Source of the DNA: Isoptericola sp. AK164 | Lineage (GTDB): Bacteria > Actinomycetota > Actinomycetes > Actinomycetales > Cellulomonadaceae | Direction of reading: 5' to 3' | DNA length: 64,000 nucleotides | Assembly: GCF_029643425.1 (NCBI RefSeq) | Contig: NZ_CP119106.1 | Span: 2,232,001-2,296,000, forward strand | Shown: in pieces, positions 1 to 7,266 of the stretch | Layout: each line of letters starts with the position of its first letter | Position numbering within the stretch: position 1 is the first letter of the stretch | Made by a program: the position numbers and the translations under genes | The notes under the pieces: generated by a model | Told to the model about the DNA's origin: nothing | Database searches by the model: none | Seen by the model: only the letters and a program-made list of their open reading frames with translations

Positions 1-1922
1 GAGAAGCCCAGCACGGAGCCTCGCGGGCTGCCGCCGTGCGCGCCGCGGGCGCCGTCGGCGATCTGCCCGGTGCGGGTCAGGGCACGGCGGTGGTGGTGCA
101 GCTCGGCGGGGTCGTCGACGCACACGTGGTCGTAGCGCCGCGCGAGCCGGTCGGCCAGCCAGCCGCCGAACGGCCCGGCCTTGATCTCCAGGCGACCCGG
201 CAGCGTGCGCGGGTCGGCGTCGTCACCCATCGGCCGATGGGTGGGCACACCTTCGAAACGCAGCCGGCGGCGCAGCGGCACGGTGTCGATGGCGGCCCGG
301 AAGTCGGCCAGCCGGTCGGCGTCGACGAGCAGCGTCGTGGCGAACCCGCCGAGGGCCAGGCCGATGGCGTCGCGCCAGGGTTCGTACTCGCCGCGCACCT
401 CGAGCAGCTCGCCGACGAACGGCAGCTCGTCGGTCCCGAGCCCGGCGGCCTCGGCCAGCGCGACCCGGGCGGCGTGGTCCTCCGCCGAGACGTTGCCCCG
501 GCGGCGGGACAGCGAGGCGGCCTCCTGCTCCAGGCGGGCCAGCCGCTGCTCGGCGTCGGTCACCGCCTGCCGCGCGCCGTACACCGCGTCCTCGAGCTCG
601 GCCGCCCGCTCGGTCCGCTGCTCCACGAGCTCGCGCGCGGCGCGGTGCACGCGGTCCAGGTCGCGCCGCGAGGACACCGACTCCTCGAGCACGGCGAGCG
701 GGGTGTCGAGCCCGGCGCGGGCGGTGCGCACCTGCGCCAGCTCCTCGGTGCGCCGCCGGACCTCGCGCTCGGCGGCCTCGATCGCGTCGCCGCCCGAGCG
801 CCGCAGGGCGGCACGGGTCTCCTCGAGGTCGGACTCGGCGGTGGCGATCCGCGCCGCGGCCGCCGTGCGCCGCTCCTCGGCCGCCCGGTGAGCCGTCCGG
901 TTGACCTCCTCCTCGGCGCGGACGAGCGCGAGCCGGCGCCGGTCGCGCCACACCGCGAACGGCGTCGTCCCCGCGGCGGGTCCGCTCCCGGTCACGCCCA
1001 GCGTGTCCAGCAGGGCGACCGAGTCCTCGGCGTCGTCGATCCGCTCGCGCAGCTCGACCATGGGCCGCAGCACCTCGACCTGGCGGGTCGCGGTGAGCAT
1101 CTCGCTGCGGACGGCGCTCAGCTCGTCGAAGTGCTCGACGGCACGGTCGGCGACCTCGAGCGTCTCCGGCTCGGTGAGCACCATCGCCTTGTACAGCGCG
1201 TCGACGGTGGTGATCGCCTGACCGGCCTGGATGCGGCCCAGCAGCTGCATCGCCTTGTGGCCGTCCCCGGCCGCGCCGATGCCGAGCGCGGCGTGCAGCC
1301 GGGTGGCGAAGGCGATGTCGGTGTCGAACGGGGTGAGCCCGGCCTCGGTGAGGCCGCCCCGGGCGAACCGGCCGGCGGCCAGGGGTTCCAGCGCGCGCAG
1401 GTCGAACGCGCCGTCGGCGGTGGCCCGCACGACGACGCACTCCTCGTTGCGGGTCGCGCCACGCGGCACGTACCAGGCCCGCAGGGCGGTGAAGACCTCG
1501 CCGGACTGGTCCGTCCAGGACATCGCGATCGCCGTCCAGGTGTCCACGCCGTCGCCGCGCAGCACCTGCTCGCGGCTGGTGGCGCCGTCGGCCCGCGAGT
1601 CGTCGAGCTTGCCGCGCGCGTAGGACAGCACGTTGCGCTGCTCGCGCCCTCGTGCCCGACCGGCCGCGGCGCCGTTGGAGGCGCCGTTGAACGGGGTGGT
1701 GTGGCTCATCATGAGCGCGATGTAGGCGTCCAGCAGCGTGGACTTGCCCGAACCGGAGGCGCCGGACAGCAGCGTCGCGCGCGCGGAGAACCGCACCTCG
1801 TGGTGCCCGTGGTAGCCGCCCCAGTTGACGAGCTGCATCGAGGTGGCCGTCCACTGGCGGCCGTCCGAGGCGGCGGGGATGAGCCCGAACAGCGAGTCGC
1901 TCATGCGGGCCGTCGACGTCAT
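1..1922 (-). CDS. jetC: Wadjet ATPase JetC (SbcC/MukB-like), 3' part off the window
   Basis: Open frame from ATG at 1922 that runs off the left edge, so about 640 N-terminal residues are visible. A P-loop GASGSGKS lies near residues 54-61, in the context ATLLSGASGSGKSTLLDAY. The part toward the edge is rich in Ala, Glu, Arg and Leu in heptad-like spacing, as in the coiled-coil arms of SMC-like proteins. Position directly after jetA and jetB (2 bases after the jetB stop) identifies it as JetC, the SMC-like motor of Wadjet, which in known systems extrudes DNA loops so that the JetD nuclease can cut small circular plasmids. JetD and the JetC C-terminus (signature, Walker B) should lie further left. 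Long plus-strand frames across it are shadows. Confidence 0.85.
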   Translation of the reverse strand, partial: MTSTARMSDSLFGLIPAASDGRQWTATSMQLVNWGGYHGHHEVRFSARATLLSGASGSGKSTLLDAYIALMMSHTTPFNGASNGAAAGRARGREQRNVLSYARGKLDDSRADGATSREQVLRGDGVDTWTAIAMSWTDQSGEVFTALRAWYVPRGATRNEECVVVRATADGAFDLRALEPLAAGRFARGGLTEAGLTPFDTDIAFATRLHAALGIGAAGDGHKAMQLLGRIQAGQAITTVDALYKAMVLTEPETLEVADRAVEHFDELSAVRSEMLTATRQVEVLRPMVELRERIDDAEDSVALLDTLGVTGSGPAAGTTPFAVWRDRRRLALVRAEEEVNRTAHRAAEERRTAAAARIATAESDLEETRAALRRSGGDAIEAAEREVRRRTEELAQVRTARAGLDTPLAVLEESVSSRRDLDRVHRAARELVEQRTERAAELEDAVYGARQAVTDAEQRLARLEQEAASLSRRRGNVSAEDHAARVALAEAAGLGTDELPFVGELLEVRGEYEPWRDAIGLALGGFATTLLVDADRLADFRAAIDTVPLRRRLRFEGVPTHRPMGDDADPRTLPGRLEIKAGPFGGWLADRLARRYDHVCVDDPAELHHHRRALTRTGQIADGARGAHGGSPRGSVLGF

Positions 1923-1924
1923 GG

Positions 1925-2620
1925 TCACGCGATCTCCTGCGTCTCGTCGGGACGGTGGTCGGTGCCCGCGTCGGCACCGTCGGCGGCACCGGTGCCTGTG
2001 CCGCGCAACCACGCGGTGAGCTCGCGCAGCCGGTCCACGGGCAGCAGGATCTCCACCACCGCGCCCACGCGGTACCGCCCCGTGGCGACCTCCTCGAGCA
2101 CTCGCTCGCGCACCAGCGCGGCGACGGCGTTCTCGATCTCGCGGTGCCGGGCGGCCAGGTTCGTCTCGTCGTGGGCGAGGAACCCGAGGGCGTAGTCGGT
2201 CATCTCCTCGGCGTCCACGTAGGCGGCGGGGTGCCCGGCACCCTGCTCCTGGTGGTACCGGTTGCGCACGTAGAGCATGAGCAGCGTCTCGACCCGCTTG
2301 AACGGCTCGTCGCGCAGCAGCACCGGGATCGCGAGCCCGTCGGACCGGACCTGGCGCTTGTAGGCGATCTCGTAGTCGCGGTCCACCACGAGCTCGACGA
2401 ACAGGTCGTGCAGCCGCGAGGACAGCACCTGCTGGTGGGCCAGGAGCGCCGTCCACTCGGCCGGGTGCTCCGCGGCGGACAGGTAGCGACGCTGCATCAC
2501 GAGCGCCAGCACGCGACGGGCCTCGAACGGCAGCACGCCGCTGTCGCCGGCGAACAGCGCGGCGTCGTCGTCCTCGATCGCGGCGGTCTCGACGAAGGTG
2601 CCCTCGCCGGCGTCAGTCAT
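1925..2620 (-). CDS. jetB: Wadjet subunit JetB (DUF4194, MukE-like)
   Basis: 231 aa from ATG at 2620, overlapping the end of jetA by 8 bases and ending 2 bases before jetC, so translation is probably coupled. The sequence matches the DUF4194 pattern: an N-terminal segment (FEARRVLALVMQRRYLSA), a central TLLMLYVRNRY helix, and a winged-helix-like C-terminal half ending in a charged tail. In Wadjet, JetB is the small MukE/kleisin-associated subunit that sits with JetA on the JetC ATPase heads. The assignment rests on family resemblance plus the jetA-jetB-jetC order. Confidence 0.82.
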   Translation of the reverse strand: MTDAGEGTFVETAAIEDDDAALFAGDSGVLPFEARRVLALVMQRRYLSAAEHPAEWTALLAHQQVLSSRLHDLFVELVVDRDYEIAYKRQVRSDGLAIPVLLRDEPFKRVETLLMLYVRNRYHQEQGAGHPAAYVDAEEMTDYALGFLAHDETNLAARHREIENAVAALVRERVLEEVATGRYRVGAVVEILLPVDRLRELTAWLRGTGTGAADGADAGTDHRPDETQEIA

Positions 2621-4175
2621 CGGTCCTCCTGATCGGGGTGCGGGGCAGCACGAAGTCGCGGGTGGTGCCGTCGGCGCGGGTGGCGGTGACCCGCTCCAGC
2701 CCGTCGGCGGGCACGTCCCCGGTGCGGGGGGCCTCCGGTGGCGACGCGGCCGCGGCGTCGTCGGCACCGGGGCGGCCGCCGTCGACGGCCAGGTCCAGGT
2801 AGCCGAGCAGCTCCACCGGCCGGCGCAGCGCCGCCGGGCCGTCGGAGAAGACCGCCCCGACGGTGCTCGGCGCCGTCAGCCCGGCCAGCCGCGCCGCGAG
2901 GTCCTGGTGGCTGGGGCCGCCCATCGCCCGCAGCTCGTCGATCGCCCCGTCCGGGTCGTCGGTGTCCTCGGGCGCCCACGGGTCGAGCTGCTCGGGCGGT
3001 GTCTCGGGACGCAGGTCGTGCAGGGTGGTGCGCAGCCGGCCCGGCACGGCACGCTCGAACCAGCGCAGCGGCTCGACCCGGGCCGCCCGGCCGCTGGCCG
3101 GGAACCAGTCCGCCATCGCCGCGGTCGCCTCGCGCAGGGCGCTGTCGACCTCGCGGTCGCGCAGTGGGTTGTGGTGGCGGATCTGCGCGGTCACGGTCCG
3201 CGAGACGCGGGCCTGCGCGGCGAGCACGACCTCGATGGCCGTGACCAGCTGCGACCGCAGCCCCTGCAGCGCGTTCCGCTGCGCCACCGGCAGGTCCACG
3301 GCGAACGGGTGCTCGAGGATCTCGCGCACGCGCTGCTCCAGGGAGTCCAGGAGCTCGGGATCGCCGAGGAGCTCCATCGCCCCGGCGAACGCCCGGCCCT
3401 CGGTGGTGCTGTCGAGCAGGTTCTCCGAGGCGTCGAGGTACTCCGCGACCACCACGCCGGTGGACCGGTCGTCCTGACGCAGGCGGGTCACCAGGTCGCG
3501 CTGCAGGACGGTCAGCGACTCCGCCACGCGGGCGAAGTCGGCGGGCAGCTCGCGCACGAGGAACAGCAGGTGGTCGTACTGCTCGCCCAGGCGCTCCTCG
3601 GCGACGGGCTCCACCTCTCCCCCGGCCTCGAGGCGCGCGAGCTCGCCCTGCGCCTCGTCGATCCGCGCGCGCAGCCGCCGCATGCGGGCCTCGCGGTCCG
3701 GGTAGGCGTCCCGGGCGAGGTCGTCGAGCGCGACGAGCAGCGTCCGGATCCGGGACTCGCTGACCAGGCCCCGGCCGCCCTGGGTGCGCGCGACGACGTC
3801 GAGGGCCTCGGTGGCGTAGCTGGAGAGCTGGTACCGCTCGGCGCCGCCGTCGTCCAGGGACCGCACGAGCCAGCGCTCGCGCACCCACCGGGTGCACAGC
3901 ACGCGCGCGGGCTCGTCCGGCACCCGGGGTGCGCCGGACGCCGCCGGCGCACCGCCGTCGTCCCGGGCGGCACGGAAGCCGTCCAGCAGGTCGTCCACCT
4001 CGACGTGCAGCTGCTCGGTGGCGACCGTCGGGCGGTCCGGGGTGAACACGCAGCGCAGCACGGCGACCACCAGGGGCGCCTCGGCCTTGTGCAGCAGCCC
4101 GAGCGTGGGGGCCGCGAAGGCGCGCTCGATCCCGGCGAGCGCCCCGGCCAGGCGGGAGCCAGGTGTCGACGCCAC
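2613..4175 (-). CDS. jetA: Wadjet subunit JetA (DUF3375, MukF/kleisin-like)
   Basis: DUF3375-type protein. The family-like N-terminus begins around LAGALAGIERAFAAPTLGLL, with a following LVVAVLRCVFTPDRPTV segment, a helical middle (residues ~180-330) and a low-complexity Ala/Pro tail. In Wadjet it is the kleisin-like bridge of the JetABC condensin complex. The start is uncertain. An ATG at 4286 would overlap the leuS stop by 14 bases and add 37 residues that look unlike the family, so the GTG at 4175 (520 aa) is preferred; neither has a well-spaced ribosome-binding site. The 8-base overlap with jetB supports one operon. Confidence 0.82.
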   Translation of the reverse strand: MASTPGSRLAGALAGIERAFAAPTLGLLHKAEAPLVVAVLRCVFTPDRPTVATEQLHVEVDDLLDGFRAARDDGGAPAASGAPRVPDEPARVLCTRWVRERWLVRSLDDGGAERYQLSSYATEALDVVARTQGGRGLVSESRIRTLLVALDDLARDAYPDREARMRRLRARIDEAQGELARLEAGGEVEPVAEERLGEQYDHLLFLVRELPADFARVAESLTVLQRDLVTRLRQDDRSTGVVVAEYLDASENLLDSTTEGRAFAGAMELLGDPELLDSLEQRVREILEHPFAVDLPVAQRNALQGLRSQLVTAIEVVLAAQARVSRTVTAQIRHHNPLRDREVDSALREATAAMADWFPASGRAARVEPLRWFERAVPGRLRTTLHDLRPETPPEQLDPWAPEDTDDPDGAIDELRAMGGPSHQDLAARLAGLTAPSTVGAVFSDGPAALRRPVELLGYLDLAVDGGRPGADDAAAASPPEAPRTGDVPADGLERVTATRADGTTRDFVLPRTPIRRTDD

Positions 4176-4272
4176 CTCAGACGCCGGGCCTGTCGCGCCG
4201 TCCGAGCCTGCAGTTCCGCGCCCGCCGCGTGCCTCGCTGCGCTCGGCCCCCTGCCTCTGCTGCACCTCCGGC

Positions 4273-7266
4273 TCAGACGACGACATTCACCAGCTTCGGC
4301 GCCCGGACGATCACCTTGCGGATCTCGGCGCCGTCGATCGCCCGCATCACGTTCGGCTCGGCCAGGGCCGCCGCCGTCAGGTCGTCGTCGGAGATGTCGG
4401 GCGACACCTCGACGCGCCCGCGCACCTTGCCCTTGACCTGCACGACGCAGGTCACCGTCTCGGCGACCAGGTACTCGTCGCGGGCCTCGGGGAACGGCTC
4501 GCGCGCCAGCGACGCGGTGTGCCCGAGGCGCTCCCACAGCTCCTCGGCGATGTGCGGCGCGATGGGCGCGACCATGAGCACCAGCGGCTCGACGGCGGCA
4601 CGCGGCACGCGGTCCAGGGCCGTCAGGTGGTTGTTGTAGGTGATGAGCTTGGCGATCGCCGTGTTGGGCCGCATGCCCTCCATCTCGGCGCGCACGTCCG
4701 CGATGGTGCGGTGCAGCGCCTTGAGGGTGTCCGGCGCGGGCTCGTCCTCGGTGACCACCGGCGACCCGTCGGTCTCGTCGACGACGTTGCGCCACAGCCG
4801 CTGCAGGAACCGCTGCGAGCCGACGACGTCCCGCGTGTTCCACGGCCGGGACAGGTCCAACGGGCCCATCGCCATCTCGTACACCCGGAAGGTGTCGGCG
4901 CCGTACTCGGCGTACATGTCGTCGGGGGTGACGACGTTCTTCAGCGACTTGCCCATCTTGCCGTACTCGCGCTCGACGGCCTGGCCCTGGTAGGTCCACC
5001 CGGCCTGCTCGTCACCCTGGACGTCGGCGGCGGGCACGTAGGCACCGCGATCGTCGGTGAAGGCGTAGGCCTGGATGTAGCCCTGGTTGAACAGCTTGCC
5101 GAACGGTTCGCGGGAGCTGACGTGCCCCAGGTCGTGCAGGACCTTGTGCCAGAACCGCGCGTACAGCAGGTGCAGCACGGCGTGCTCGACGCCGCCGACG
5201 TACAGGTCGACGCCGCCGGCCGGCCCGGAGGTGTCGTTGTGCCGGGGGCCCATCCAGTACCGCTCCAGCGCCGGGTCGACCACGGGCCGCTCGCCGTCGC
5301 CCTGGTCGTCGGTGCCCCAGGTGGGGTCCAGGTAGCGCAGGTAGTACCAGCACGACCCGGCCCAGTTGGGCATGGTGTTGGTGTCGCGGCGGTACTGCTG
5401 CGGGCCGTCGCCCAGGTCCAGGGTGACGTGCACCCAGTCGTCGTTGCGGCCCAGCGGCGCCTCCGGCTCGGAGTCGCGGTCGTCCGGGTCGAAGGTGCGC
5501 GGCGCGTAGTCCGGCACCTCGGGCAGGTCCACGGGCAGGCGGTCACCGGGGATGGCGACGGCGCGGTCCTCGGCGTCCCAGAGGATCGGGAACGGCTCGC
5601 CCCAGTACCGCTGGCGGCTGAACAGCCAGTCGTTGAGGCGGTAGGTGGTCGTGCCCCGGCCGGCGCCCTTCTCCTCGAGCCAGGCGATGATCCGCGCCTT
5701 GGCCTCGGCCACGCCGAGACCGTCCAGGGAGATCTCGTCGTTCGACGAGCGCACGGTGACGCCGTCGCCGGTCCACGCGCCCTCGTGCCCCTCGGGCAGC
5801 CCGCCGGCCGGCTCGACGGTGTGCACGATCGGCAGCTCGAAGGCCTCGGCGAAGGCGTGGTCGCGGTCGTCGCCGCCGGGCACGGCCATGATCGCGCCGG
5901 TGCCGTAGCCCATCAGCACGTAGTCCGCCGTGAAGACGGGGACGGTCTCGCCGTTGACCGGGTTGACCGCCAGGTGACCGGTGAACACGCCGGTCTTCTT
6001 GCCGGCGTCGGCCTGCCGCTCGACGGCGGTCTTGGCGGCCGCCTCGCGACGGTAGGCGGCCACGGCCTCCACCGGGGAGGAGTGCCCGCCGGTCCAGACC
6101 GCGCGGGTGCCGTCGGGCCAGCCGGCCGGGACCTCGTCCAGCAGCGGGTGCTCCGGGGAGACCACCATGAAGGTCGCGCCGAACAACGTGTCGGGCCGGG
6201 TGGTGAACACCTCGATGGCGGCGCCCGCGCCGGCGGCGTCGGCGTCCGCGTCACCCGCACCGACGACGTGGAAGGTCACGTTGGCGCCGGTCGAGCGGCC
6301 GATCCAGTTGCGCTGCATCGCCTTGACCTTGTCGGGCCACTCGATGAGCTCCAGGTCGTCGACCAGGCGGTCCGCGTAGGCGGTGATCCGCATCTTCCAC
6401 TGGCGCAGGTTCTTGGTGAACACCGGGAAGTTGCCGCGCTCGGAGCGTCCCTCGGCGGTGACCTCCTCGTTGGCCAGCACGGTGCCCAGGCCGGGGCACC
6501 AGTTCACCGGGGAGGAGTCGACGTAGGCCAGGCGCTGGGCGTCCAGGACGTCGCGCTGCTCGGGCTCGCTCAGCGTGGACCACACGGCGCCGCCGGTGTT
6601 GTCGCCGTCGTGCCCGGGCACGGGCCGGGTCCCGGCCGCCAGCTCCGCGCGCAGCTCGGAGATCCGGCGGGCTCGGCCGCGCTGCGTGCCGCCGTCGACC
6701 GGCTCGGCGTCGGCGTCGTACCAGGAGTCGAAGATCTCCAGGAAGATCCACTGCGTCCAGCGCACGTAGTCGTCGTCGATGGTGGCGAAGCTGCGGCGCG
6801 GATCGTGCCCCAGCCCCATCCGGCGCAGCTGGCGGCGGTAGGTGACCATGTTGCGCTCGGTCACCAGGCGGGGGTGCTCGCCGGTCTGCACGGCGTACTG
6901 CTCGGCGGGCAGGCCGAAGGCGTCGAAGCCCATGGCGTGCAGCACGTTGTCGCCGCACATCATGCGGAAGCGGCCGACGACGTCGGTGGCGATGAACCCG
7001 AGCGGGTGCCCCACGTGCAGCCCCGCCCCCGAGGGGTACGGGAACATGTCCATGATGAAGAAGGGCCGTCCGGCCGGCTCGGCCCCGTCGGGACCGGTGA
7101 GCTCGCCGGTGGGGTTCGCGGCGTGGAACGTGCCGCGCTCCTCCCACCGGTCCTGCCAGCGCAGCTCGATCTCCTGCGCGAGGGCCGGGGTGTACCGGTG
7201 CTCGGGCTCGTCGGGGCGCTGCGGGGCGGCGGACAGGTCAGTGGTGTCGGCGTTGGGCGTGCTCAC
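4273..7266 (-). CDS. leuS: leucyl-tRNA synthetase
   Basis: 997-aa class I aminoacyl-tRNA synthetase charging tRNA-Leu. The HIGH-type motif is HVGHPLGF near residue 80 and the KMSKS-type motif is KMGKS in [12 protein letters not shown] near residue 765. Between them lies a large connective/editing domain with a [12 protein letters not shown] segment (CP1 editing site). Slightly longer than typical (~950 aa) because of insertions around residues 195-240 and 330-350. GTG start at 7266 has no Shine-Dalgarno; a TAGACT hexamer lies 7 bases upstream, suggesting a leaderless mRNA. The Wadjet genes follow on the same strand. Confidence 0.97.

Follow-up and report, generated by a model that had tools for sequence, protein, structure and literature searches.

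The window analysed here, a stretch of 64,000 nucleotides (G000:C1:2232001-2296000) from the single-contig chromosome (3,576,703 bases) of Isoptericola sp. AK164, carries at its left end the genes jetA, jetB and jetC of a Jet (Wadjet-type) structural maintenance of chromosomes (SMC) complex, which follow leuS on the reverse strand. The jetA gene (2613..4286, -) encodes the kleisin, a DUF3375 protein equivalent to MksF, jetB (1925..2620, -) encodes the KITE subunit, a DUF4194 protein equivalent to MksE, while jetC (1..1928 within the window, -) encodes the SMC ATPase, equivalent to MksB. There are two candidate starts of jetA, GTG at 4175 and ATG at 4286, the latter overlapping the leuS stop by 14 nucleotides. 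The jetA stop codon (2615-2613) and the jetB ATG (2620-2618) give an overlap of 8 nucleotides, and the jetB stop codon (1927-1925) and the jetC GTG (1928-1926) an overlap of 4 nucleotides. The jetC gene crosses the left window edge and spans G000:C1:2230560-2233928 in full, ending 1441 bases left of position 1, while leuS (4273..7266, -), identified by its Pfam leucyl-tRNA synthetase domains, lies directly upstream of jetA. Both the order jetA-jetB-jetC with overlapping ends and the same-strand position directly after leuS had been proposed in a preliminary description made from the sequence alone, and both agree with the profiles and coordinates given here.

JetA, JetB and JetC are Jet-type proteins. 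JetA matches Pfam PF11855 (DUF3375) with 366 bits and PADLOC JetA1 with E=2.4e-165, JetB matches DUF4194 and PADLOC JetB1 (E=2e-80), while the portion of JetC inside the window matches PADLOC JetC1 (E=8e-263); JetC stays under the cut-offs of the general SMC models MukB (22 bits vs 23) and SMC_prok_B (43.5 vs 567), in line with the family assignment of the preliminary description. The nearest PDB chains are JetA 8q72 (E 9.9e-14) and 8as8 for JetA, and JetC 8dk2 (5.9e-75, with the alignment A1 profile as query) and 8as8 for JetC; the JetB of the window, as a single-sequence query, has no PDB chain at E<=0.01. JetC contains the ATPase motifs Walker A (GASGSGKST), signature (KSGGESQ) and Walker B (FLDEA), which are invariant or nearly so among 21 JetC sequences, and among the matches listed, a list that possibly omits its own record, Isoptericola sediminis JC619 has the nearest named counterpart (92%).

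The nuclease gene jetD is absent. Extension of the sequence to the left past the jetC end (G000:2230560) uncovers no jetD beside jetC, and the JetD_C domain, found by the same search in the control Corynebacterium glutamicum, has no match at E<=10 in the whole 3.58-Mb chromosome. DUF3322, the N-terminal domain of JetD, yields one sub-threshold match in the genome (14.5 bits vs a cut-off of 22, E=0.05), which is rejected as a JetD, as Pfam identifies a LuxR-type regulator with tetratricopeptide repeats in this protein and, at thresholds as loose as E=0.1, detects no DUF3322. JetD remnants were not found at the window's own locus. The locus is therefore not a complete Wadjet, and the earlier proposal of a system cutting small circular DNA, which was to be abandoned if jetD did not follow jetC, is not upheld. 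What is found is an operon-like array of JetA, JetB and JetC with intact JetC ATPase motifs and no jetD beside jetC, i.e. homologues of MksB, MksE and MksF without MksG, as in a nuclease-free MksBEF. The genome also encodes ScpB (158 bits, G000:C1:1706356), the component of Smc-ScpAB that was looked for, and JetABC is therefore probably a second SMC complex beside Smc-ScpAB.

Among 18 Isoptericola-like genomes, JetC is present in 18 and leuS is adjacent to jetA in all 18, where one genome (G016) is split over two contigs and counted via its second. This comparison of the region downstream of leuS sustains one half of the suggested fixed plasmid barrier, as leuS-jetABC is fixed in the genus, while the other half, DNA cutting, is unsupported with jetD absent. 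JetD_C occurs in four of the 18 genomes (G001, G008, G012 and G015), and the first three have it as part of an additional, divergent jetABCD at another site in the genome. In G015 a divergent complete jetABCD occupies the slot between leuS and the glycogen phosphorylase gene glgP (L072 3719-18612). This is the only genus genome with jetD after jetC in the leuS slot; its JetD is matched over both JetD domains (PADLOC JetD1 2.3e-74), its JetC is just 52% identical, and its LeuS (80%) groups inside Isoptericola. It looks as if a full system replaced the JetD-less genes in place.

On the far side of jetC in the AK164 genome, a convergent gene begins after 19 bp and is followed, on the jet strand, by glgP, degV and comEA, all three named by reading rather than by profile. 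The convergent gene (L002 9744-10547) has weak immunoglobulin-like matches under curated cut-offs and appears secreted by reading; a gene of this kind stands in the jetC-glgP interval of six of the 18 genus genomes and was not found there in the others. The jetC-glgP gap measures only about 50-100 bp in 9/18 genomes. In Isoptericola sp. BMS4 (L071 3881-6267), a major facilitator superfamily transporter and a TetR-like regulator, both named by reading, lie between jetC and glgP, and the slot therefore tolerates insertions.

In 396 genomes of the order, JetD_C is found in 89 and a JetB relative in 142. Close relatives of the window's JetB account for 47 of the 150 JetB places listed, and in five of these 47 a same-strand JetD_C lies no more than 8 kb downstream; the remaining 42 close loci come from 42 genomes, 38 of which lack JetD_C at E<=0.001, in a count that takes no account of contig ends. 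With named genomes added, 130 loci were read, and removal of 18 duplicates and of L086 and L083, which have no JetC, leaves 110 distinct loci, of which 35 carry JetD, 74 do not (six of them with <2 kb of sequence past jetC) and one retains a remnant. In JetD-bearing loci the spacing between the aligned parts of jetC and JetD is 72-318 bp. The JetD-less complex also lies beside leuS in Luteimicrobium, Paraoerskovia, Jonesia, Timonella and others, while a full jetABCD occupies the leuS slot outside the genus in Xylanimicrobium pachnodae. The remnant, the only one in 75 stretches after jetC, is that of Cellulomonas sp. URHE0023 (L130), where the last 45 JetD residues are retained with 75.6% identity to the JetD of L121, which by its sequence is a scar of JetD deletion.

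In the 75 JetD-less loci, clustering of the three predicted genes that come next after jetC revealed no recurrent stand-in for JetD. A replacement effector is thus rejected there, as the biggest clusters consist of genes neighbouring the leuS slot (17 glgP, 12 degV and 10 opposite-strand genes) and the rest have <=5 members, including a 4-member cluster that by eye resembles a small P-loop kinase. Two further families were observed. In f11, another family of the order (L083, L188-L195), the three jet genes often lie apart, with as much as about 6 kb between them, and no JetD was found in the 18-kb stretches. In family f6 (L082, L196-L199, L201), six of the eight loci compared have a JetD-less jetABC that is conserved in position and in its neighbours, possibly a further fixed JetD-less lineage.

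After 11 of the 110 loci were left out, a quick LG+G4 tree of 99 JetC sequences requires 19 changes of JetD presence, 18 of which are forced by starred branches. JetC and JetD distances are correlated over 30 JetD-bearing loci (r=0.908; 0/2000 permutations as high); JetD therefore moved together with this family of JetC proteins, and loss is the simplest account of its absence. From these sequence relationships, the absence of JetD here is probably a loss. An old JetD-less group comprises 24 loci from Isoptericola, Luteimicrobium, Paraoerskovia, Jonesia, Timonella and relatives, with leuS in view in 22 and two on short contigs, and 13 representatives of it form one side of a branch with support 94 in a 42-row mixture-model tree. 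In related loci JetD presence has also changed many times more recently, by loss and perhaps by regain.

The old group is also distinguished by its JetB N-terminus. The pattern FIx[PT][VIL]x[MA]E is present in 27/27 JetD-bearing loci, in 42/46 other JetD-less loci and in 0/24 of the old group, with 13 far relatives among the 110 loci left out before the count; the stricter form FIx[PT]VxME gives 23/27, 40/46 and 0/24, respectively. At this place JetB of the old group begins with FV, and that of the window reads FVETAAIED. JetD is reported to contact a motif at the JetB N-terminus (PMC10586767, section 7), and by analogy the peptide may be linked to JetD docking. Its identification with the published IFDR contact motif is rejected, as none of the PDB JetB chains aligns in the N-terminal part, and the analogy is one of position only.

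The genes jetA, jetB and jetC are under purifying selection. In seven pairs of leuS-linked JetD-less loci, three of which share species, the ratio of nonsynonymous to synonymous substitution rates (dN/dS) is 0.06-0.24 for JetA, JetB and JetC and 0.09-0.22 for LeuS, while GlgP has 0.08-0.17 in the six pairs having glgP. The balance of constraint differs between JetD-bearing and JetD-less loci. Automatic choice on the tree gave 35 path-disjoint species pairs, one of which was dropped as it has no JetA; in the remaining 34, which supersede earlier hand-picked pairs (11 JetD-bearing, 19 JetD-less; p=0.003), the JetA/JetC distance ratio is 0.65 in 9 JetD-bearing pairs vs 1.05 in 25 JetD-less pairs (p=2.4e-4), and the latter divide into 1.29 for 10 leuS-linked and 0.87 for 15 other pairs; the JetB/JetC ratio does not differ (p=0.73). 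When pairs sharing species with another pair are left out, the median dN/dS of JetC is 0.097 in leuS-linked JetD-less loci (5 pairs) vs 0.205 in JetD-bearing loci (6 pairs; p=0.017), and that of JetA is 0.157 vs 0.098 (p=0.017 for the same pairs). Relaxed constraint on JetA fits the report that MksF (JetA) is the subunit linking MksG (JetD) to the complex of C. glutamicum (PMC7083940). In seven of seven JetD-bearing pairs, the dN/dS values of JetC (up to 0.36) and JetD (up to 0.53) exceed that of JetA, a possible sign of conflict with plasmids.

The locus would be best read, with a probability of roughly 0.6, as a Wadjet motor without its nuclease, now serving as an SMC complex that resembles MksBEF and does not cut. 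A type I-like JetABC core would have lost JetD long ago and been retained between leuS and glgP or degV-comEA, where the three subunits may still form a loop extruder driven by ATP. In the absence of JetD, such extrusion would end in DNA compaction, tethering or help in segregation rather than cleavage, and the complex would probably work beside Smc-ScpAB. Successive stages are seen in relatives, namely full JetABCD, JetD deletion with a scar, JetD-less loci whose JetB peptide is the common one, and a form fixed beside leuS, where a changed JetB peptide is combined with a faster JetA and a slower JetC. A wider proposal, that an immune system became a housekeeping SMC complex here, independently and in a way that can still be traced, or in its bolder form that JetABC alone silences or compacts small circles without cutting, as a bacterial functional counterpart of Smc5/6, is more tentative and less likely than not.

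Several observations weigh against a non-cutting complex derived by ancient nuclease loss. Chromosome folding is reported to be unaffected by the full MksBEFG of C. glutamicum (PMC7083940), and a nuclease other than JetD could act in trans. The 19 changes on the JetC tree cannot tell JetD loss from regain, and the old group is a grade in the 99-row LG+G4 tree and one side of a branch in the mixture-model tree; there may therefore have been one JetD loss or a few. Retention of the JetB peptide in 42 of 46 other JetD-less loci implies that its conservation is independent of JetD or that those losses are recent, while farther JetD-bearing relatives also lack the peptide, so that its loss in the old group is not polarised; the pattern was moreover written after inspection of the sequences, and the 24 old-group loci represent one or few clades and are not independent. 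As for the rates, JetA dN/dS lies above that of LeuS in 6/7 pairs, the taxa on the two sides of the rate comparison are not the same, and one of the 10 leuS-linked pairs (L125-L111) falls outside the old group.

The alternatives differ in what they make of the intact motor. A JetABC that still serves anti-plasmid defence, with another chromosomal nuclease encoded elsewhere, would account for a fixed and intact operon and for accessory full Wadjets with their own JetD coexisting in 3/18 genus genomes, but it is unlikely, as JetD_C is missing from its own genome and from 38/42 close-clade JetD-less genomes (among the matches listed), and no recurrent JetD stand-in follows jetC in the 75 loci, other nucleases not having been searched for. 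Eukaryotic Smc5/6 acts on episomes by extruding and silencing or compacting them. A similar restriction of small circular DNA by JetABC, with extrusion followed by silencing or compaction in place of cutting, would suit a motor conserved without its cutter, as judged from ATPase motifs and dN/dS, and the view that JetABC gives the sensing of shape and size and JetD the cut (PMC10586767). It is nevertheless improbable to a similar degree, as a JetC more constrained than in JetD-bearing systems looks less like an arms race.

A decaying remnant of a Wadjet with no present function could explain both the loss of JetD and a JetA/JetC rate higher than in JetD-bearing systems, but it is strongly opposed by the low dN/dS in all seven pairs and by JetC in 18/18 genus species with the same slot in several other genera, which makes it very improbable. 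Least credible is a complete working Wadjet with a jetD that escaped detection or was misassembled. Full jetABCD does occur in the same slot in G015 and X. pachnodae, but a single-contig genome without JetD_C refutes this for AK164; the jetC-glgP gap is short in half of the genus genomes, and the same profile detects JetD in 35/110 loci. The preferred reading, a retained non-cutting complex, would suggest a defence weapon turned into a DNA organiser.

Whether Muk-like condensins arose from plasmid-defence machines by nuclease loss is an open idea (PMC10586767, section 7), for which related species differing in JetD provide a natural series allowing a direct test. Catalogues calling JetABC "Wadjet" may count nuclease-less complexes, because 42/47 close-clade loci (among the matches listed, 396 genomes) have no adjacent JetD_C. 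No description of a lineage-fixed JetD-less JetABC in these actinobacteria was found in titles and abstract beginnings of open-access papers, a search with most subscription papers and preprints outside its scope. For Paenarthrobacter lasiusi, a "Wadjet" consisting of JetA, JetB and JetC only is tabulated next to a complete type I system, and this entry is classed as defence with the missing nuclease left without discussion in that part of the source (PMC11719660).

Compared with Wadjet type I (JetABCD) of Escherichia coli GF4-3 and Pseudomonas aeruginosa PA14, the Isoptericola locus shares the JetA, JetB and JetC families, the gene order and the nearest structures, but differs in the absence of JetD and in its leuS/glgP neighbourhood, and its JetB N-terminal peptide is unlike that of its JetD-bearing actinobacterial relatives. 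The MksBEFG/EptABCD systems of Corynebacterium and Mycobacterium are likewise actinobacterial Jet systems, and that of C. glutamicum is reported beside Smc-ScpAB; unlike Isoptericola JetABC, they are described as carrying the nuclease MksG/JetD and acting on plasmids (PMC7083940, PMC10123090, PMC10586767). A further parallel is the nuclease-free condensin MksBEF of P. aeruginosa. It has a role in organising and segregating the chromosome (PMC7485682) and, according to a review, likely arose from JetABCD via loss of JetD (PMC10586767). Isoptericola JetABC would be an actinobacterial and apparently independent case of such a loss, and both are three-subunit Muk-like SMC complexes standing, in Isoptericola probably, alongside Smc-ScpAB (PMC7485682).

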